A DNA stretch of 10,021 nucleotides from Candidatus Magasanikbacteria bacterium RIFCSPLOWO2_02_FULL_44_11 (lineage in GTDB: Bacteria; Patescibacteriota; Patescibacteriia; Magasanikbacterales; GWA2-37-8): positions 1 to 10,021 of the forward strand of contig MFQK01000010.1 of the NCBI GenBank assembly GCA_001783035.1, given 5' to 3'. Below, piece by piece: positions 1 through 9,842 of the stretch. Positions within the stretch are counted from its first letter, which is position 1. Each line of letters opens with the position of its first letter. Both the position numbers and the translations under genes were made by a program. The notes under the pieces were generated by a model. The model had not been told where the DNA came from. It made no database searches and saw only the letters and a list, made by a program, of their open reading frames with translations.

Positions 1-86
1 CCTAAGAAGCCTAGCACTTCATCGTACCACTGTTTTGCTTTCTTTAAGTCCTTTACCGTCAGGACAAAATGGCTTTTGGATGACAT
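1..86 (-). CDS. VOC-superfamily (glyoxalase/bleomycin-resistance fold) protein, N-terminal fragment
   Basis: An ATG at 86-84 opens a frame that runs off the left edge after 28 codons. The visible residues include HFVLTVKDLKKAKQWYDEVL followed by GFLG. This is the typical first beta-strand and helix of the vicinal oxygen chelate fold: a metal-ligand His or similar in the opening strand, then a 'D...a..fY...LGf' helix. Members include glyoxalase I, fosfomycin and bleomycin resistance proteins and ring-cleavage dioxygenases, so substrate and reaction cannot be assigned from 28 residues. No clear Shine-Dalgarno precedes the ATG. On the minus strand it is the most downstream cargo gene of the putative cassette array. 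Its cassette would start at 154, giving a 5' untranslated stretch of about 68 bp. The fold assignment is fairly safe and the function is open. Confidence 0.7.
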   Translation of the reverse strand, partial: MSSKSHFVLTVKDLKKAKQWYDEVLGFL

Positions 87-148
87 AAATTAAAATCAAA
101 TTATTTTTTCAAAACAAATCAATATGATTTAAAGGGAAAGTGTATTTT

Positions 149-248
149 GCAGAACGTATCGGCATATCTGACGTTTCGCCACACCCATTATATTTTAATA
201 GAGTGGCGAAATGTGGCTTTAGCCCTTGCAGATATGCCGTGTTATATG
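149..248 (-). repeat. attC-like palindromic site A (3' end of the secreted-protein cassette)
   Basis: On the plus strand the site reads GCAGAAC (149-155), a 4-nt spacer GTAT, arm CGGCATATCTG (160-170), inner arm GTTTCGCCAC (173-182), a 20-nt loop and inner arm GTGGCGAAAT (203-212). A 16-nt one-sided bulge follows (213-228), holding a small GGCT/AGCC hairpin. Then come arm CAGATATGCCG (229-239), a 1-nt spacer T and GTTATATG (241-248). The outer arms are an 11-bp perfect match. AAC and GTT take the place of the invariant integron core triplets, but the rest departs from the RYYYAAC/GTTRRRY consensus. The stop codon of the upstream gene lies at 253-255, just outside the site. Confidence 0.6.
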
Positions 249-252
249 ATGT

Positions 253-903
253 TTATTTTTTCGTACTTGCTATTAGCACGATGCCTCCTATTAAAACCAA
301 AGCTCCTATACCAGCACCATACCAAAGAATATTTTTTTCTTTTGAGTAAATCAGTTTTTCCTTTTGTCCGTTGCTAGGTCTCCAAAAGACTTTATCTCCA
401 TCAAAATGAAAATCTCTTTCTGTGCCGCCGGAATTTATAAAGACTTGAAGGGCGGCATCATCTGGATATTTTATTCTTACTAATTTTGCATCTGAGTAAT
501 TGGACCCAGCAACTTCGTACGTCCCCCAAGCAGGGGTATAAAAATTATCGTCTTTATTAAGAGACATTACATATTTTTTATCTATAGCTACCATCTTAGC
601 TTCTTCAGGGGAAAAATTTATTGCGCCTTCAAAATTTCTCACCCCTATCTCGTCCCCCTCTTTGAGGGAGGAAATTTGATTTTGAGGAAAAATGAAGATA
701 ATTTTTATGCCACGGGCATTATCCATATCGTCAGGGGCGGACATGACCTCGCCAAGTATGAGAGTGTCTTGTTTGTGGCCGCCCAAGAGACAGCTGAGTG
801 GATCGCAGGCATAAGTTGTTGGTGCGATTAAAAAGGCACAGAAAGAGATTCCGAGAAAGAAAAAAATATTCTTGATCATTGTGTTAGAAAAAATAAATTT
901 CAT
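253..903 (-). CDS. Secreted, C-terminally membrane-anchored hypothetical protein (cassette cargo)
   Basis: A 216-residue protein of unrecognised family. Residues about 9-32 form a hydrophobic signal segment ending in APTTYA, with likely cleavage before Cys33. The mature protein starts CDPLSC (Cys33, Cys38), then a roughly 150-residue polar, beta-rich domain containing LGEVMS, and ends with a transmembrane helix (about 195-212) and STKK. It therefore probably faces the exterior, tethered at its C terminus with a short cytoplasmic Lys tail. The second Met (codon 9) gives an equally good signal peptide and may be the true start. The first ATG lies only 4 bp inside the inferred cassette boundary, so translation from it would have almost no leader within the cassette. 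The stop codon abuts attC-like site A. No catalytic motif is seen, and a sortase substrate is unlikely because there is no LPxTG. Confidence 0.7.
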   Translation of the reverse strand: MKFIFSNTMIKNIFFFLGISFCAFLIAPTTYACDPLSCLLGGHKQDTLILGEVMSAPDDMDNARGIKIIFIFPQNQISSLKEGDEIGVRNFEGAINFSPEEAKMVAIDKKYVMSLNKDDNFYTPAWGTYEVAGSNYSDAKLVRIKYPDDAALQVFINSGGTERDFHFDGDKVFWRPSNGQKEKLIYSKEKNILWYGAGIGALVLIGGIVLIASTKK

Positions 904-907
904 ATAA

Positions 908-916
908 CGTTCCAGA
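908..916. repeat. Left copy of 9-bp target-site duplication of the IS
   Basis: CGTTCCAGA at 908-916 is repeated exactly at 2236-2244, immediately outside the two terminal inverted repeats. The length fits IS4-family insertion. Removing one copy and the IS rebuilds a continuous palindromic site whose arm CAGAATATG pairs with 2331-2339. Confidence 0.85.
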
Positions 917-932
917 CACTAGTGTTGCGTTA
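917..932 (+). repeat. Left terminal inverted repeat of the IS
   Basis: CACTAGTGTTGCGTTA matches the complement of 2220-2235 at 15 of 16 positions. Similarity stops abruptly beyond it on the inner side, and the target duplication begins directly on the outer side. Confidence 0.85.
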
Positions 933-1008
933 AGCAACATTTCGTTCCTTAAAATTTAGCTAACTATAAAGCAAATTTGGCATTTTTGGCTTGTATACGA
1001 CTTGAATC

Positions 1009-1017
1009 TGGTATGAT
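1009..1017 (+). promoter_or_regulatory. Probable transposase promoter (extended -10)
   Basis: TGG followed by TATGAT (1012-1017) makes an extended -10 box about 30 bp before the transposase ATG. Only a weak -35 is present (CTTGTA, 990-995, 16-bp spacer), which fits a low-level, extended -10 promoter. Confidence 0.45.
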
Positions 1018-1018
1018 G

Positions 1019-1041
1019 ATTTTATTAACTTTTAATAAAAT
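1019..1041. promoter_or_regulatory. Perfect hairpin just upstream of the transposase start
   Basis: ATTTTATTAA (1019-1028) and TTAATAAAAT (1032-1041) form a 10-bp perfect stem with a 3-nt loop, ending 5 bp before the ATG at 1047. In IS10 and IS50, upstream inverted repeats block translation of transposase from read-through transcripts. A similar role is inferred here. There is no recognisable Shine-Dalgarno between stem and ATG. Confidence 0.45.
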
Positions 1042-1046
1042 TATCT

Positions 1047-2222
1047 ATGTTTCAAGGTCAATATGTTTTTTCGCAAATCGCTGAACTCATCCCTCGCCAC
1101 GAATTCGATAAGTGTGTCAAACGATACAATGGCAATATCCGCGTTCGCAACCTATCTTGCCGCGATCAGTTGCTCGCTCTGATGTTCGGCCAACTAACAA
1201 ACCTGCGCAGTTTACGCGGCATCGTCCTCTGTTTAAATGCTCACGCGAATTTGCTCTATCACCTTGGTTTCAAGTCAAAACATTTTACTTTATCAACTGT
1301 GTCTCGCGCCAATGAAAATCGCGACTGGAAAATTTATCATGATTTGGCGCAGACGCTGATTACCAAAGCCAGAAAACTATACCTTAACGATAATGATTTT
1401 GCAATTGACATCGATGGCGCGGTCTATGCCCTTGATTCCACCATCATCGATCTGTGTCTCGCTACGTTCAGATGGGCATATTTCGAACTGGGAAAGTCCG
1501 CCGTTAAGATTCACACCCAACTAGATCTGCGAGGCAATATTCCCTCGTTTTTCCTAATAACCAAGGCCAAAACGCATGATATTAATTTTTTAGACATTCT
1601 CGAGTTCGAAGCAGGAGCAATCTATATTATGGATCGCGGCTACTTCGACTTCGAGAGATTATTTAAAATTCACAGCGCTAAAGCCTACTTCGTCATTCGT
1701 GCCAAGAAAAGTATTTCTTAGGAACGGATATATTCACGAACCGTTGACCGTTCAACCGGTTTACGGTGTGACCAGACCATCAAACTCAACAACTTCTATT
1801 CTAAAAAGCATTATCTGGATAAATTACGGCGGGTAAAATATTACGATCAAATTACCAACCAATATTACACCTACTTAACCAACAACTTTGGGGCAAGCGC
1901 CAAAACAATCGCCGACCTTTACAAGCACCGCTGGCAAATTGAATTGTTCTTCAAATGGATTAAACAACATCTAAAGATTGAGGTGTTCTGGGGTAGATCG
2001 ATCAACGCCGTTAAGACCCAAATTTGTATTGCCATCTGTACGTTTCTCCTCGTTGCCATCATGAAAAAAGAACTTAAGATAAAACGCGACCTTTACGAAA
2101 TTCTACAAATTTTGTCCTTGTCCCAATTTGAAAAAACCCCTATAAACACGCTAGTTTCTAAGTTTGAACCACTAAGTTTTAATGAACAGGCTCAGAAACG
2201 CTTATTTTCATTGGATTTCTAA
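1047..2222 (+). pseudogene. IS4-family DDE transposase interrupted by one in-frame TAG
   Basis: The frame codes for 391 codons with a single TAG at codon 225 (1719-1721). Both halves are in the same frame, so this is a nonsense codon, not a frameshift. The N terminus (about residues 1-75, PRHEFDKCVKRY and DQLLALMFGQL) resembles the DUF4372 region of IS4-type transposases. The catalytic triad is intact: Asp130 in YALDSTIID, Asp196 in IYIMDRGYF and Glu299 in the signature Y292-x2-R295-x3-E299-x6-K306 (YKHRWQIELFFKWIK). The missing residue lies between Asp196 and Glu299, in the stretch AKKSIS-x-ERIYSRTVDRSTG. The truncated 224-residue product would lack Glu299 and should be inactive. The family assignment is firm. 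Readthrough or a sequencing error at the TAG cannot be excluded. Confidence 0.88.
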
Positions 2223-2235
2223 CGCAACATTAGTG
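2220..2235 (-). repeat. Right terminal inverted repeat of the IS
   Basis: TAACGCAACATTAGTG is the complement of the left end with one mismatch. The first three bases are the transposase stop codon. Confidence 0.85.
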
Positions 2236-2244
2236 CGTTCCAGA
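2236..2244. repeat. Right copy of 9-bp target-site duplication of the IS
   Basis: CGTTCCAGA, identical to 908-916. It includes the spacer and the first four bases of the outer arm of attC-like site B, showing that the IS landed inside that site. Confidence 0.85.
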
Positions 2245-2348
2245 ATATGCGATGTTTGCTAGCGGTATAATATGCCCGCAGGGCGACCGCTGGCAAACAT
2301 GGGTGTAGCGACCAGAGGGGAGCGAAACCACATATTCTGTGTTATAGG
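2236..2348 (-). repeat. attC-like palindromic site B, split by the IS (left remnant at 901-916)
   Basis: With the IS removed, the plus strand reads CATATAAC (901-908), a 4-nt spacer GTTC, arm CAGAATATG (2241-2249), CG and inner arm ATGTTTGCTAGCGGT (2252-2266). A loop follows, then inner arm ACCGCTGGCAAACAT (2286-2300), a 30-nt one-sided bulge (2301-2330), arm CATATTCTG (2331-2339), a 1-nt spacer T and GTTATAGG (2341-2348). The outer arms pair 9/9 and the inner arms 14/15. Spacing (4 nt and 1 nt) and the side of the bulge match site A. The loop holds a GCCC/GGGC hairpin (2273-2284). The stop of the next gene lies at 2354, directly outside the site. Confidence 0.6.
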
Positions 2349-2353
2349 TTGTT

Positions 2354-2632
2354 TTATTCATCGTCCATGTAGAATCTTTGTCCCCAGAATGAAATAAAAT
2401 AATAATCATCAGCACAAGCATCTATTTTTGCGCCGAACGGCACCCATTTAACGTTTAAGCATGATCCATCACAGTCACAAGTATTTTTAGGTTTCTTAAA
2501 ATTCTCCGTGTCATTCCCGCGAAAGAAACTACTTTCCACAATGTCTTCTCCGTTATCGATCCAAAGCCAAGGTGACGTGAAGGCCAAGGCAAATAGACCA
2601 ATGATAAAAATGCTGATTATTATTTTTTGCAT
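2354..2632 (-). CDS. Small membrane-anchored hypothetical protein (cassette cargo)
   Basis: A 92-residue protein not recognised as a known family. Residues 3-20 form one hydrophobic segment (signal anchor or uncleaved signal). The rest is acidic and aromatic-rich, with Cys52, Cys54, Cys58 and Cys73 (TCDCDGSC and DACADD), suggesting an exported domain with disulfides or a bound metal. The ATG at 2632 is preferred over an upstream in-frame TTG at 2647 because MQKIIISIF gives a normal signal-type start. The GGAT just before it is too close to be a good ribosome site. It sits 95 bp downstream of the methyltransferase, with no attC-like site between them. Both would then share one cassette and rely on the same upstream transcription. 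Its stop codon is 5 bp from site B. Confidence 0.6.
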   Translation of the reverse strand: MQKIIISIFIIGLFALAFTSPWLWIDNGEDIVESSFFRGNDTENFKKPKNTCDCDGSCLNVKWVPFGAKIDACADDYYFISFWGQRFYMDDE

Positions 2633-2727
2633 ATCCAGATTTATCAATTATTTCGATGTTGAAGTGAACAAAGAAATATCCGCGTGGTTTTAATGCTCTA
2701 AAAGTTTCTGGAATTAATTTTTCTTTT

Positions 2728-3339
2728 TTATGGTTTCTTTGCAAAAATCTCCATTCCTTTTTTGCCGACCCAGTAACTAAATTTAAGAATTTTAAAATTG
2801 CGTTGAGTAAGTAAATTTTTGAATGATTTTGCAGTAAGGCGTTTTTTAAGTAAACCATCATTACCGGAATCAAATGCCTCGTAGTCCTCATTTTTATCGC
2901 TAACAACTGAAGTAATATATAAAATGCTATCTTTTTTAAGTAAAGTGCTTAGTTTGTTCAAAAATTTATCTTGCTCATTTATTGAGATGTGTTGAAAAAC
3001 ACGACAACACCAAATGCCATCATATTTATTAGTGGCTGATAATTTCATTACATTCGCAATTTTAAAATTCGTTTTTGGTGCAAATTTTTTAGCTAAGCTG
3101 ATCATTTTCTTTGATACATCTATACCAAAAACCGAACAACCGTTATCAGTTAAAAATTTTGAATCCTGTCCGCCTCCACAACCAATATCTAAAACTTTGG
3201 CTTGGATCGGCAAAAAAGTTAAAAACGTCTTTAGTGAAGGAATAGACAGTTGTTCACCGTAGCCATGTTGGTTTGTATATTCCTTGGCAATTTTGTCGTA
3301 AGATTTTGCGATCGGTTTTTGCATATTTGCTTTAGTCAT
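2728..3339 (-). CDS. Class I SAM-dependent methyltransferase (cassette cargo)
   Basis: A 203-residue single-domain methyltransferase. After the SYDKIAKEYTNQH helix typical of small-molecule methyltransferases, motif I is VLDIGCGGGQ (49-58), and the acidic residue ending strand 2 is Asp74 in FGIDVSKKM, expected to hold the SAM ribose. NKYDGIWCCRVFQHI (104-118) is the motif IV/post-II region, LLKKDSILYI (133-142) the strand before motif VI, and SYWVGKKGMEIFAKKP the C terminus. Length and motif order are those of a complete Methyltransf_11/25-type enzyme. The substrate cannot be read from sequence. No Shine-Dalgarno precedes the ATG, which lies 19 bp inside the inferred cassette start. It is the first coding cassette behind the divergent promoter region at 3539. 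Confidence 0.88.
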   Translation of the reverse strand: MTKANMQKPIAKSYDKIAKEYTNQHGYGEQLSIPSLKTFLTFLPIQAKVLDIGCGGGQDSKFLTDNGCSVFGIDVSKKMISLAKKFAPKTNFKIANVMKLSATNKYDGIWCCRVFQHISINEQDKFLNKLSTLLKKDSILYITSVVSDKNEDYEAFDSGNDGLLKKRLTAKSFKNLLTQRNFKILKFSYWVGKKGMEIFAKKP

Positions 3340-3352
3340 AAAATGGAATGGC

Positions 3353-3392
3353 GTATAACATATCCGAGTATGCGTATATTCTGTGTTAAACG
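3353..3392 (-). repeat. Minimal attC-like site C
   Basis: The plus strand reads GTATAAC (3353-3359), a 4-nt spacer ATAT, arm CCGAGTATG (3364-3372), CG, arm TATATTCTG (3375-3383), a 1-nt spacer T and GTTAAACG (3385-3392). The 4-nt/1-nt spacing and the CG inside the outer arm are those of site B, and the arm TATATTCTG nearly equals CATATTCTG of site B. The inner stem and bulge are missing, and the two arms pair only 6/9. GTTAAAC fits the integron GTTRRRY consensus exactly. It is either a degenerate or truncated attC or a hybrid formed by deletion. Confidence 0.5.
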
Positions 3393-3492
3393 ATCCGAAC
3401 GGAGCGTAGCGGAGTGAGTGCGCAGCGGGGCGCGACTAAAAGGAGCCTAATTAAAATATCTCAAATTATTTGCTGATCAAAATTTCGTTTAA
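3359..3492 (-). other. ORF-less 134-bp unit at the proximal end of the array
   Basis: On the minus strand this unit starts TTAAACGA and ends with CGTTTAAC of site C, so its ends are complementary over nine bases when the G at 3493 is included, as in a circularised cassette. It contains no credible ORF in either direction. The interior has an AT-rich half and a GC-rich half (3394-3447) with repeated GCG and CGGAG words, like the loops of the other palindromes. It may be a decayed cassette or a promoter-carrying spacer. The outer boundary at 3493 is where the array meets the uvrB upstream region. Confidence 0.4.
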
Positions 3493-3514
3493 CTCGCTTG
3501 TATCTTTACAATTT

Positions 3515-3543
3515 TTGGTAGAATGTTAAAATCGGCGTATTAT
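3515..3543 (+). promoter_or_regulatory. Probable uvrB promoter
   Basis: TTGGTA (3515-3520), a 17-bp spacer and TATTAT (3538-3543) match the sigma70 consensus at 4/6 and 5/6. Transcription would start near 3550, giving a 5' leader of about 130 nt that carries the small ORF and the direct repeat. No SOS box of the LexA type was seen. Confidence 0.5.
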
Positions 3544-3567
3544 ACCTACTTTAAGCTACTTTGTATT
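3539..3567 (-). promoter_or_regulatory. Possible promoter driving the cassette block
   Basis: On the minus strand a perfect TATAAT lies at 3544-3539, fully overlapping the uvrB -10. The -35 position (AATACA with a 17-bp spacer, 3567-3562) is poor. It points into the cassettes, whose genes have almost no leaders of their own, and so would act like the Pc promoter of an integron. The function is inferred from position and the -10 alone. Confidence 0.35.
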
Positions 3568-3579
3568 TATAGGTAGTCT

Positions 3580-3675
3580 ATGGGAAATAATAACACGCGA
3601 GATGATGTTGTGCAATTATTGTCCGGCGATTATCATTATAGTCCGGCGATACGGAATATTAAAAGTCCTTTATAG
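3580..3675 (+). CDS. 31-residue leader ORF upstream of uvrB
   Basis: ATG at 3580 is preceded by AGGT (3571-3574) at a workable distance, one of the few plausible ribosome sites in the window. The peptide MGNNNTRDDVVQLLSGDYHY plus SPAIRNIKSPL ends at TAG 3673-3675, two bases before the uvrB ATG. Such an arrangement allows translational coupling, and uvrB itself has no better ribosome site. The peptide is not recognised and has no membrane segment. It may be a regulatory leader, a small protein or chance. The tight junction and ribosome site favour a real translated frame. Confidence 0.35.
   Translation: MGNNNTRDDVVQLLSGDYHYSPAIRNIKSPL
3621..3650 (+). repeat. Exact 10-bp direct repeat with 20-bp period before uvrB
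   Basis: GTCCGGCGAT occurs at 3621-3630 and 3641-3650, separated by an AT-only-plus-one-C spacer. A period of 20 bp is close to two helical turns, as for paired binding of a protein on one DNA face. The copies fall in different reading frames of the leader ORF, so coding does not explain them. Confidence 0.5.
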
Positions 3676-3677
3676 GT

Positions 3678-5753
3678 ATGAATTTTAAATTGGAGTTCAA
3701 CTATAAACCGGCGGGCGATCAGCCCAAGGCGATAGAACAATTGACCGAAGGAATAAAAAAAGGGTTTGATCGACAAACTTTGCTTGGCGTTACCGGTTCC
3801 GGCAAAACTTTTACGATGGCAAACGTTATTCAAAATGTACAGAAGCCGACTTTGGTTATCGCGCACAATAAAACATTGGCGGCTCAGCTATGTAATGAAT
3901 TTAGGGAATTTTTTCCAAATAATGCGGTGGAATATTTTGTCAGTTATTACGATTACTATCAGCCGGAAGCGTACATGCCAAATACCGACACCTATATTGA
4001 AAAGGAAGCGATGATCAATGAAGAAATTGATCGACTACGCCACGCTTGCACGCAAGCGCTTCTGACCCGCGAAGATGTTATTATCGTGGCTTCGGTTTCG
4101 GCGATTTACGGTTTAGGTTCGCCGACCGAATATGAAAAAATTGTTTTGCATCTTCGTAAAGGCGAGGCGCTTGATCGACGTACTATGCTTGAGCAATTAA
4201 TCGCTATGCAATTTGTGCGGACCAATGCCGATTTGCGCCGCGGCCAATTCCGGATACATGGCCAGGTTTTTGAAATCATGCCGGTGAATGAAGATGCGAT
4301 TTATCGTTTTGAAATTACCAATCGCATTGAACGGATTGAATTGGTTGACAGTGTCACGAGAGCCGTCCGGCGCGAACAAGAAGATGCTTGGTTTTTTCCC
4401 GCTAAACACTATGTCGTAGGCGATTCGGCACGGGAGCGAGCCTTTAAGAGTATCCAAAAGGAATTGGAAGAGCAATTGGCATTGTTTGAAAAGCAGGGGA
4501 AGGTTTTGGAGTATGAACGTCTTAAGCGTCGCGTGCGTTATGATATTGAAATGATAAAAAATATCGGGTACTGCAACGGTATTGAAAATTATTCCCGACA
4601 TTTTGAAGAGCGTCTGGCGGGGGAGCCGCCTTTTACGCTTTTGGATTATTTCAGTCATGGTAAAAAGGATGCTTTTTTGACGGTTATCGATGAGTCGCAT
4701 GTCACCGTTTCGCAGATTCGCGGAATGTATTTTGGCGATAAGTCGCGTAAAGATACGCTGGTGGAGCACGGTTTTCGTTTGCCGAGCGCGCGTGATAATC
4801 GTCCGCTGATGTACGAAGAATTTGATGAACGTGTCGGCCAAGTGGTTTATGTTTCGGCCACGCCGAGTGAGTATGAAATAAAAGTCAGCCAACAAGTGGT
4901 GGCACAGGTAGTGCGCCCGACGGGATTGATTGACCCGGAAGTTTTAATTTTGCCGATTGTCGGCAATAAAGAAAAAGGGACAAAATCGCAAGTGGAAGAT
5001 TTAATCGTTCGCATTGAGGAACGAATCGCGCAAGGGGAGCGCGTACTCGTGACGACACTCACGAAAAAAATGGCCGAGGACTTGGCTGATTATTTAAAAG
5101 AGAAGAAAATAAAAGTATCCTATCTGCATAGCGATATTGATACATTGGAACGCATCGAAATAATTACCGATTTACGTCGTGGGAAAGTTGACGTCATTGT
5201 TGGCGTAAACTTGTTGCGGGAAGGCTTGGACATGCCGGAGGTATCATTGGTCGCGATACTCGATGCGGACAAGGAAGGTTTTTTACGGAGTGAAACAAGT
5301 TTGATCCAGACAATAGGACGCGCCGCGCGCAATGTGAACGGTCAAGTTTTGTTGTACGCCGATCAGATAACCGGTTCCATTACACGCGCGATCGATGAAA
5401 CACAACGACGTCGCACTATTCAGCTGGCTTATAATAAAGCGCACGGTATTACACCGCAAACCATTCAAAAAGCGATCCATAATTTGTTGGAAGAGTTTGG
5501 TATTACCGCCGACAAGGCCAAGCGCGGTGAGAGGGGCAAACGCGCTCGTGAGCGGAACATTGCCGAGCTCGACTTGTTGGGTGACGCCCGGCCGCTTGAA
5601 GTTATTATTAAGGATAAAGAAAACCAGATGCGCGAGGCGGCGAAGGATCTGGAATTTGAATTAGCGACTATTTTGCGCGATGAGATTCGTGAATTACGGG
5701 TGCGGGCAAAGACAACAGAGGTCAAAGAAAAGAAAAAGCGAGTTAAAAAATAA
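3678..5753 (+). CDS. uvrB: UvrB, DNA-damage-verifying helicase subunit of the UvrABC excinuclease
   Basis: Full-length UvrB of 691 residues. UvrA delivers it to damaged DNA. It opens the strands, verifies the lesion and recruits UvrC for incision. Visible landmarks: GDQPKAI (13-19), Walker A GVTGSGKT (37-44), the tyrosine-rich beta-hairpin EYFVSYYDYYQPEAYMP (85-101) that locks onto one strand, Walker B DESH (338-341) followed by FRLPSARDNRPL, helicase motif VI QTIGRAAR (544-551), and a C-terminal UVR motif (about 647-676) that contacts UvrC. The start is fixed by the conserved FNYKPAGDQPKAIEQL opening. It follows a small leader ORF by two bases and probably depends on the promoter at 3515-3543. 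All catalytic residues are present. The GC content is higher than in the cassette genes. Confidence 0.98.
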   Translation: MNFKLEFNYKPAGDQPKAIEQLTEGIKKGFDRQTLLGVTGSGKTFTMANVIQNVQKPTLVIAHNKTLAAQLCNEFREFFPNNAVEYFVSYYDYYQPEAYMPNTDTYIEKEAMINEEIDRLRHACTQALLTREDVIIVASVSAIYGLGSPTEYEKIVLHLRKGEALDRRTMLEQLIAMQFVRTNADLRRGQFRIHGQVFEIMPVNEDAIYRFEITNRIERIELVDSVTRAVRREQEDAWFFPAKHYVVGDSARERAFKSIQKELEEQLALFEKQGKVLEYERLKRRVRYDIEMIKNIGYCNGIENYSRHFEERLAGEPPFTLLDYFSHGKKDAFLTVIDESHVTVSQIRGMYFGDKSRKDTLVEHGFRLPSARDNRPLMYEEFDERVGQVVYVSATPSEYEIKVSQQVVAQVVRPTGLIDPEVLILPIVGNKEKGTKSQVEDLIVRIEERIAQGERVLVTTLTKKMAEDLADYLKEKKIKVSYLHSDIDTLERIEIITDLRRGKVDVIVGVNLLREGLDMPEVSLVAILDADKEGFLRSETSLIQTIGRAARNVNGQVLLYADQITGSITRAIDETQRRRTIQLAYNKAHGITPQTIQKAIHNLLEEFGITADKAKRGERGKRARERNIAELDLLGDARPLEVIIKDKENQMREAAKDLEFELATILRDEIRELRVRAKTTEVKEKKKRVKK

Positions 5754-5802: not shown

Positions 5803-6420
5803 ATGCCTATGAAAAAAATTATTTTTAAAGCAATACTGATTGGAATCGGCGTGCTCGTTTTTGCCAATATGGTGATTTTGTCGTATTCGCGTTTTATTGT
5901 TAAAGATACGAGTGCCCTACCGTATCGGGAAGTGGCGCTTATTTTCGGTGGCGGTATGGAAGAAGATGGCTCGATGAATAAGATGCAGACCGATCGAGTG
6001 ATACGCGGTATTGAACTGTATAAGTCTGGCAAGGTTGATAAACTCATGATGACCGGCGATGATGGCTTTCACCACGACGATGAGGTAGGTGCTATGAAAG
6101 CCTATGCTGTGCAGGCAGGAGTTCCCGCAGAAGATATTTTGGTTGATCCGCACGGTTACCGCACCTATGAAAGCTGCTATCGTGAACGTGTTGTCTATGG
6201 TATGACGTCCACCATCGCGATTTCGCAATCGTTCCATTTGCCGCGCATCGCTTATCTATGTTCTCGTATTGGAATTAAAACCACCGGCGTCTCAGCTGAT
6301 TTACGTGATTATAACTGGAAGAATTCTTATTACAGTAATATACGTGAGGTTCTAGCCAGACTGAAAGCGGTTTGGCAGGTCGAAATCACTCGACCACAAC
6401 CAACAAGTTTAGAAAAATAA
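5803..6420 (+). CDS. SanA/ElyC/YdcF-family (DUF218) membrane protein
   Basis: A 205-residue protein with an N-terminal membrane anchor (about residues 6-28) and a soluble DUF218 domain. Motifs in order: VALIFGGGM (44-52), DRVIRGIELYKSGKVDKLMM then TGDDG (64-88), VDPHGYRTYESCYR (114-127), and AISQSFHLPRIAYLCSRIG (139-157), which is the conserved T/S-x-SFHxPRA-like core, followed by GVSAD. In Escherichia coli, SanA and ElyC affect envelope permeability and peptidoglycan or lipid-carrier metabolism, but the reaction is not established, so no function is claimed here. The charge pattern (MKKIIFK before the helix) suggests the domain lies outside the membrane. Met1 (leaderless) and Met3 are alternative starts. 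The stop codon lies inside the arm of the palindrome that begins at 6414. Confidence 0.88.
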   Translation: MPMKKIIFKAILIGIGVLVFANMVILSYSRFIVKDTSALPYREVALIFGGGMEEDGSMNKMQTDRVIRGIELYKSGKVDKLMMTGDDGFHHDDEVGAMKAYAVQAGVPAEDILVDPHGYRTYESCYRERVVYGMTSTIAISQSFHLPRIAYLCSRIGIKTTGVSADLRDYNWKNSYYSNIREVLARLKAVWQVEITRPQPTSLEK

Positions 6421-6537
6421 ATTACATAATTTTAAACAACATTTCGCAGGGCGTCCTCGCGGACGACCGAGAACGAAGCAAAAACGGCCGCGATCGGCCG
6501 TTTTATGCTGTTTGTTTAGAGTTATGTAATTTATTTT
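6414..6537. repeat. Large palindrome whose arms include both flanking stop codons
   Basis: AAAATAAATTACATAA (6414-6429) is perfectly complementary to 6522-6537. Further in, AAACAACA (6434-6441) pairs 7/8 with TGCTGTTT (6506-6513). The interior holds a CGTCC/GGACG hairpin (6452-6465), a GACCGAGAACGAAGC word and a terminator. The outer arms contain the TAA of the SanA-like gene and, on the other strand, the TAA of the lipoprotein gene, so both genes end in the same AAA-TAA-ATT sequence. Confidence 0.75.
6481..6504. terminator. Bidirectional intrinsic terminator between convergent genes
   Basis: A 10-bp perfect stem AAAACGGCCG / CGGCCGTTTT with the loop CGAT is flanked by A and T runs on opposite sides, so it can stop transcription from both directions. 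It sits between the SanA-like gene and the convergent lipoprotein gene. Confidence 0.85.
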
Positions 6538-6959
6538 ACTATCAATTTAATTTCGTTTGAGGTCTGCAAGCATTCACCATCCTTTAGTTCACAGACACGA
6601 AAATAGCGATTACCGGATTTAACTCCACTCCAAATGTATTCGCGGGTGCTGCCGACAAGGTCTTGCCAATAAGCGCCTTGTCCGACTTCGCGTCCCGGAG
6701 TAGAACCGTGAATAAGGCGAAAACGGTTTGTTGGATCCATGTTTGTCGGTGTATTCCATTGTAATTTAACTTCACCAGCATTTTCCATCGCTTCACCGCT
6801 CAAGGTAAATGCGTTGGCGGTCTGGTCTGGCGAGGCGCTTGTTTCGTTTGGTGTTTGATTTGGTTGGTTGGTCGTGGGCGTGGCAGCAGGTTGGTTACAG
6901 CCGGCTCCGATCATAACAAGTCCCATCAGTATTGAAACAACGAAACTTTTTTTCCGCAT
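6531..6959 (-). CDS. Small lipoprotein with a fibronectin type III-like domain
   Basis: A 142-residue protein. MRKKSFVVSILMGLVMIGAG then Cys21 forms a lipoprotein signal peptide. The lipobox (IGAG-C) has Gly rather than Leu at -3, which is atypical but acceptable. A low-complexity Pro/Thr/Asn/Gln linker follows (22-50), then a beta-sandwich-like domain (about 50-142) with EVKLQWNTP, YIWSGVKSGNRYFRVCEL and SNEIKL, the strand pattern of fibronectin type III repeats (Trp in strand B, Tyr-x-Arg-Val in strand F). Cys121 and Cys128 could form a disulfide. It is probably exposed on the cell surface, and its partner is unknown. An AAGGAG sequence (complement of 6983-6988) is 23 bases before the ATG, too far for a standard ribosome site, and an in-frame stop rules out a longer start. 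Confidence 0.8.
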   Translation of the reverse strand: MRKKSFVVSILMGLVMIGAGCNQPAATPTTNQPNQTPNETSASPDQTANAFTLSGEAMENAGEVKLQWNTPTNMDPTNRFRLIHGSTPGREVGQGAYWQDLVGSTREYIWSGVKSGNRYFRVCELKDGECLQTSNEIKLIVK

Positions 6960-9744: not shown

Positions 9745-9842
9745 CATGGCATTCAATGGCATTTTGAGCGGGTTCGACGACCGCAGTCGTCGCCCTGAGG
9801 CCTCGCGGCCGAGGAAAGCGAAAAATGCTGTTGAATGCCATG
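9745..9842. repeat. Large palindrome between uvrA and uvrC
   Basis: CATGGCATTCAA (9745-9756) plus GCATTTT (9759-9765) pair with 9822-9842, leaving two mismatched positions in 21. The interior carries two GC-rich hairpins, CGACGAC/GTCGTCG (9775-9792) and GGCC/GGCC with the loop TCGC (9799-9810), then GAGGAAAGCGAAAAA. There is no long T run after the stem, so it is at most a partial terminator. It may instead modulate read-through into uvrC or protect the uvrA mRNA. Its core resembles that of the palindrome at 6414-6537. It fills most of the 153-bp gap between uvrA and uvrC. Confidence 0.75.

Follow-up and report, generated by a model that had tools for sequence, protein, structure and literature searches.

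An integron-type cassette array beside uvrB in a Candidatus Magasanikbacteria genome, and related arrays adjoining integrases without the IntI-specific region

The cassette array and its flank

The window analysed here comprises the first 10,021 nucleotides of contig MFQK01000010.1 of Candidatus Magasanikbacteria bacterium RIFCSPLOWO2_02_FULL_44_11 (assembly GCA_001783035.1). A cassette array of integron type, without an intact integrase, occupies positions 1-3492 on the minus strand. It is followed by a leader (3493-3579), a 31-codon open reading frame (ORF; 3580-3675) and the flanking gene uvrB (3678-5753, plus strand), which was named from its sequence in a first reading of the letters alone (the sequence-only reading). 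That reading had proposed an integrase-less array beside uvrB in a genome of the candidate phyla radiation (CPR), resembling a CALIN (a cluster of at least two attC sites without an integrase), and our analyses support it. The AAC/GTT boundaries it placed at 154/155, 907/908 and 3358/3359 are found there on the minus strand, and the outermost boundary lies between G 3493 and T 3492. All are of the form G↓TT, the arrow marking the junction. Read on the minus strand from uvrB leftwards, the leader is followed by units starting with TTAAACGA, TTATACGC, TTATATGA and TTCTGC, with a G before each.

The sites closing these units were scored with a custom covariance model, R1, trained on 17 sites (one from the window, two from contig 17 of the same assembly and 14 from related genomes). 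The first unit (3359-3492, 134 bp) is gene-less and ends in the short and degenerate attC-like site C (3349-3395; 24.6 bits, E 0.0142 over the whole assembly); its start TTAAACGA pairs fully with the start of its own site, TCGTTTAAC. The second, running from 3358 to 908, contains a cassette (2245-3358) with a methyltransferase (2728-3339; Methyltransf_25, 63.2 bits, cut-off 27) and a 97-amino-acid ORF (2354-2647) that had no match in Pfam. It is closed by site B (2230-2351, last base 908; 57.2 bits, outside the training set), the 3' arm of which is split by an insertion sequence. Its start TTATACGC against its own site CCTATAAC is the weakest match of the three, at 4/6 beyond the core. In the third cassette (155-907), an exported-looking ORF of 216 amino acids (253-903), also without a Pfam match, is closed by site A (145-251; 66.8 bits, in the training set), and the start TTATATGA matches the start of its own site TCATATAAC in full. 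The complementarity of unit starts to their own sites, as first described, was thus recovered in full for two units and in part for the third. The last unit (1-154), a cassette start by the boundary reading, encodes a VOC/glyoxalase-type protein truncated by the contig end, of which a 28-amino-acid fragment matches PF00903 (25.6 bits, cut-off 20.6). All these features lie on the minus strand. The stop codons of the 216- and 97-amino-acid ORFs stand only a few bases from the sites, which bears out the description of cargo in one orientation with stops abutting the sites. An Rfam search gave two matches, both below threshold.

The element inside site B (909-2244, plus strand) is flanked by an 8-bp target duplication, GTTCCAGA, at 909-916 and 2237-2244, and has inverted repeats at 917-932 and 2220-2235. 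Its transposase is in two pieces (1047-1721 and 1944-2222), the first of which matches DUF4372 and DDE_Tnp_1, a pair that we take to mark an IS4-type element. When the flanks were joined without the insertion sequence for comparison, site B was intact and was followed by G↓TTATATGA. Within the array of the window, a transposase with terminal repeats and a target duplication occurs only here and not in the other units.

The leader (minus strand) combines an attI-like insertion point (..AAGCGAG↓TT) with a TATAAT-like box at 3539-3544 that faces the array and is promoter-like as judged by eye. It is 92% identical to the leader of an array on contig 17 (query positions 24-151 of 154), and a search of its DNA in 56 other genomes gave only two matches, of 19 and 27 bp. 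The 31-codon ORF (plus strand), MGNNNTRDDVVQLLSGDYHYSPAIRNIKSPL and a stop, ends in IRNIKSPL, and these final residues are the C-terminus of the integrase family of related genomes. The motif [RK][NSK]IKSPL before a stop was found 28 times in 4.28 million six-frame codons of the sampled loci: 24 occurrences were in an integrase context and the other four were this ORF itself in overlapping loci. In the relatives G003 and G018 the integrase gene occupies the same place, directly before uvrB, and in G012 it lies some 2 kb before that gene (G, C and L labels denote our genomes, contigs and loci). From its C-terminal motif and its position, the ORF is probably an integrase gene after an internal deletion, its first half being the less certain part.

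Sites, arrays and traces of recombination in relatives

Over the 983-kb assembly (E<=0.05), R1 found seven sites, three in the window and four on contig 17, and none elsewhere. The self-complementary sites hence exceed chance, and all seven stand in two arrays, not as the singly scattered palindromes that the sequence-only reading had considered as a contrary outcome. The only DNA match of site B elsewhere in the assembly was on contig 17, where four minus-strand sites lie at the contig start behind a leader and adjoin a recG-like gene (named by eye from its translation). Judged by eye, a methyltransferase cassette on this contig lies between the two arms, AAATAATTTGCCCCCAATTTTTAT and the complementary sequence (about 2173-2198 and 2929-2953 of L036), of a long inverted repeat. 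No intact integrase was found in the window or on contig 17, and the only recombinase elsewhere in the assembly (95% complete) is of Xer type.

The lineage does contain an integrase, the lack of which would have spoken against an integron: array-linked copies are present in G003, G018 and G012, with the apparent deletion remnant in the window. A first set of 14 loci was picked by the integrase alone, regardless of sites, and behind a short leader these contained cassettes with the same kind of sites on the strand opposite to the integrase. R1 sites were found in 12 of the 14, and the remaining two have less than 150 bp before the contig end; nine of the loci had supplied training sites, and none came from L063, L065, L066, L071 or L072. 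Together with 40 further regions, this gave 45 loci with an integrase match and 63 sites, every one of them (63/63) upstream and on the strand opposite to the integrase. Where more than 1 kb of upstream DNA was available, sites were detected in 24 of 28 integrase loci. The same arrangement held outside the order for all 59 listed same-contig sites within 25 kb (21 genomes); one site 38 kb off on the other side of the integrase (G446:C45:1-95) lies past the 25-kb limit and was left out of this count. It held also for 89/89 sites in 20 regions chosen for holding both, a set that overlaps the 59 sites.

Counts of genomes with sites are among the matches listed. In the order, 52 of 86 genomes had sites (R1, E<=0.01), namely 40 of the 47 integrase-positive genomes against 12 of the 39 others (counted by hand and compared by Fisher test). 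In the phylum, sites were found in 63 of 379 genomes (E<=1e-5) and the integrase in 57 (E<=1e-50), 51 of these at at least 260 bits. With this 51-genome set, 40 genomes had both, 11 the integrase only, 23 sites only and 305 neither. Many genomes have the integrase no more than about 600 bp from the end of a contig (G013:C10, G075:C81, G010:C1, G054:C13, G049:C9, G047:C1); assemblies therefore seem to break at arrays, and array lengths are underestimated. R1 matches also occur near I2-less recombinases in Spirochaetota (L121, 11718-11825) and Bacteroidetes (L168, 15667-15804), so that a wider spread is possible.

The related arrays are built of attC sites, which have AAC/GTT cores and arms that are palindromic. 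In the L stem, 96.9% of cells were paired, 9 of the 11 pairs had changed on both sides and 251 cells were double changes; none of 500 shuffles reached this covariation and slid controls were far lower, in an alignment fitted to the R1 model. An extra-helical base in the L'' arm, as in canonical attC, was the best solution in only 3/87 and 3/68 sites, with R1 itself based on ungapped stems; 34 of 121 and 21 of 89 sites were excluded from these stem counts for an unclear core, excessive length or the presence of N. For canonical controls, a one-bulge scan gave four array-sense matches in 20 IntI loci, most of which have little upstream DNA. Three of these control matches, from L160 and L162, resemble attC, and an extra base stands in the L'' arm of each, although such controls are few.

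The first bases of cassettes matched the R'' of their own site better than that of others (4.22 versus 3.22 of 6; 59 own and 154 non-own pairs), and the same was true of a second set (5.52 versus 3.63; 46 own and 208 non-own pairs). In neither set did any of 10000 permutations reach the observed sum, and the lower value of 4.22 probably includes intervals with an undetected gene-less cassette. In 57 of 61 intervals the longest ORF was read in the sense of the array; two further intervals lacked a 60-amino-acid ORF.

Identical cassette starts provide further traces. In G013, 206 bp are identical behind an attC and behind an attI-like sequence, while the left sides share 33% identity. Identical starts behind an attI-like point and behind attC were also found in G029 (62 bp, to the locus end), G044 (95 bp) and G069 (65 bp), and six copies of a cassette start, of 64-184 bp, occur behind both in G050. 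G033 has a 108-bp identical start behind two attC sites, and starts of 25-33 bases are common to different genomes, contig 17 included. All begin exactly at G↓TT behind differing sites, the traces that circular cassettes inserted at attI and attC would leave. An automatic test for the boundary at attI worked for no more than 6 of 27 loci, with rough integrase start points, and the argument for attI is therefore based on these identical starts. They place attI beside a divergent integrase in G029, G044, G050 and G069; in the window the integrase is lost. Of the boundary-precise gain and loss that the sequence-only reading had expected, cassette spread was seen in relatives, but neither gain nor loss of units of the window itself, as none of the relatives examined was found to have these cassettes. 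Along one array, L062 (G050:C8, 8130-13800), a gene-less cassette is repeated six times, once straight behind attI.

The integrase of the relatives

In related genomes the array-linked enzyme is an intact tyrosine recombinase of about 280 amino acids. Proteins of this family are named by NCBI as integrases of Candidatus Magasanikbacteria, and Moranbacteria and Peregrinibacteria are among the named relatives; a Peregrinibacteria locus (L113) has two R1 sites on the strand opposite to the integrase and upstream of it. The sequence-only reading had looked to an IntI-type recombinase with the IntI-specific patch, and this expectation failed: the array integrases of the relatives lack the IntI-specific region of about 42 residues that includes the I2 helix. 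Among the matches listed, none in the 86 genomes of the order passed the cut-off of TIGR02249 (integron integrase), and many frames of 259-390 codons matched its positions of about 2-180 and 237-314 with the middle absent. In the phylum the cut-off was reached by 0 of 379 genomes, against 3 of 3 canonical controls.

The spacing of the motifs flanking this region was 61-63 residues in 20/20 phylum integrases and 61-64 in 33/37 order integrases, versus 103-104 in 17 of 20 IntI rows. The measure is rough: a Nitrospirae protein outside IntI gave 106 and the genome's own Xer 117, L129 gave no value, and three IntI rows (L157, L162, L169) gave 84 or no value. The best match by sequence in the Protein Data Bank (PDB) is 2a3v, residues 186-240 of which are skipped in the sequence-profile alignment, and a predicted structure has no helix at the place of I2. 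In a recombinase tree (16/40 order integrases, 14/20 phylum integrases and 41/52 named rows), the 20 IntI rows formed one clade (100/100) that contained 0 of 35 CPR rows; one other integrase analysis used 22 of the 40 order rows. By eye, the integrases of L067 (G029:C5) and L068 (G073:C2) have extra residues beside the NGR-GG loop, apart from the I2 region, that resemble small palindromic insertions.

Interpretation and relation to known systems

At a probability of roughly 0.85, we read the window as the attI end of a chromosomal Patescibacteria integron with the I2-less type of integrase, here decayed to a CALIN-like remnant. A tyrosine recombinase whose gene lies divergently beside the array would insert cassettes ending in attC hairpins at G↓TT; it belongs to a group outside the IntI clade and without the IntI-specific region and I2 helix. 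This recombinase most likely acts on one folded attC strand, and would recognise not docked extra-helical bases but the AAC/GTT core, the 11-bp stem and a spacer that is unpaired and asymmetric, one side being mostly A and the other three or four bases long. In the present genome the gene for the integrase would have been internally deleted and one attC hit by the insertion sequence, leaving the array CALIN-like.

Several results weigh against this reading. Sites without a detected integrase occur in 12 genomes of the order and 23 of the phylum, and the integrase without a site in 7 of 47 positives in the order and 11 of 51 in the phylum. The four site-less loci among the 28 with upstream DNA encode divergent integrase-like proteins (40-43% identity). 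Bulged sites may be under-counted by a model trained on ungapped stems. The attI-like end of the window is not clearly similar to the GTTNGNATAAAGGTAG↓TT form of the relatives, and the N-terminal half of the 31-codon ORF has no strong similarity to the integrase family. Two structural arguments were given up: a three-way-junction attC was dropped, as branching was found in 52/62 sites versus 243/310 shuffled interiors, and bottom-strand stability was set aside (82/87 and 60/68 versus 378/435 shuffled interiors).

The best-placed alternative, which we regard as unlikely, is that the I2-less recombinase uses the sites as double-stranded Xer-type sites, the palindromes having another role such as transcription termination. 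The fold of the enzyme is equally near to XerA/Xer and to IntI, and the bottom-strand folding bias is weak (82/87 versus 378/435 shuffled), as such use would allow. However, L'' covaries strongly with L', the first bases of a cassette match its own R'', which a folded-site substrate would predict, and the fold is kept while site sequences differ. Less likely again, at slim odds, is an ordinary CALIN with cassettes that a canonical I2-bearing IntI brought in and moves, either in trans or from other bacteria, with the neighbouring recombinases as bystanders. Neither the window nor contig 17 contains an intact integrase, and the accessible part of PMC9668308 describes CALINs as common and their cassettes as movable in trans. 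This sits poorly with the absence of any Patescibacteria genome over the TIGR02249 cut-off, with an I2-less recombinase at the attI end of the array in every same-contig case counted, and with R1 finding no site in 20 loci with canonical IntI. A transposon nature of the units, with inverted repeats as their bounds, is most improbable, and the sequence-only reading too had found that it explains them less well: one true insertion sequence lies in the array (909-2244), but the other units have neither a transposase nor a common terminal sequence and follow attC or attI-like sites, with their starts at G↓TT, and the identical cassette starts contradict it.

Integrons of the I2-less type, of which the window would hold a decayed one, share with sedentary chromosomal integrons (VchIntIA, 2a3v) an attI beside a divergent integrase, cassettes that follow each other head to tail in one orientation, gene-less cassettes, AAC/GTT cores, a G↓TT crossover and palindromic attC. 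They differ from them in an integrase without about 42 residues around the I2 helix, outside the IntI clade, and in attC that mostly lack the extra base in the L'' arm. Such systems would work as integrons do, yet they are not members by the IntI criterion. With three sites in the window and four on contig 17, both arrays have the composition of CALINs, but here the attI-like leader and the probable integrase remnant are still present. Integrons of Archaea likewise stand outside the classical phyla and are mostly known from metagenome assemblies; their IntIs, unlike the Patescibacteria integrases, are described with the IntI-specific additional domain (PMC9668308, in its accessible part). XerA-type recombinases (PDB 5hxy, 4a8e; NF040815) have the same length and domain make-up without I2, and of five integrases tested against NF040815 (cut-off 220 bits) three scored well over, one at 234.8 and one below. 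Unlike XerA, the relatives' integrases are tied to attI and attC arrays and end in ..SPL as IntI does, and 2a3v outscores XerA by sequence profile.

In the sections available of PMC7790495, cassette capture is said to need the I2 helix, which is described as the innovation by which a double-strand recombinase became an integron integrase, with the absence of intermediates named as a limit. Natural I2-less integrases, with attC mostly lacking the bases docked by I2, would be intermediates of this kind or else a second solution. We lean, with some reserve, towards integrons that never had or have lost I2, a different route to recombining folded attC that is spread over Patescibacteria, with integrases in two non-IntI clades and attC mostly without extra-helical bases; they may preserve a stage preceding the gain of I2. 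Array-linked recombinases without a part thought essential make the origin of integrons testable, and small-genome Patescibacteria would, if this is true, gain a platform for gene capture. The accessible text of a review (PMC8618304) lists 14 phyla with integrons, Patescibacteria not among them, and that of PMC12259885 applies IntegronFinder to bacterial metagenome-assembled genomes including CPR, retaining complete integrons only. Programs requiring the IntI domain would probably call integrons of the present type CALINs or miss them. In a literature search that left aside preprints and most subscription papers and took in accessible parts of PMC2727003 and PMC9024848, we found no report of integrons with such integrases in Patescibacteria.

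Outside the array, the window contains two intergenic palindromes, neither called by R1, at 6410-6541 (30-nt arms, 72 nt between) and 9745-9842 (21-nt arms, 56 nt between), the arms of which are 90% complementary.

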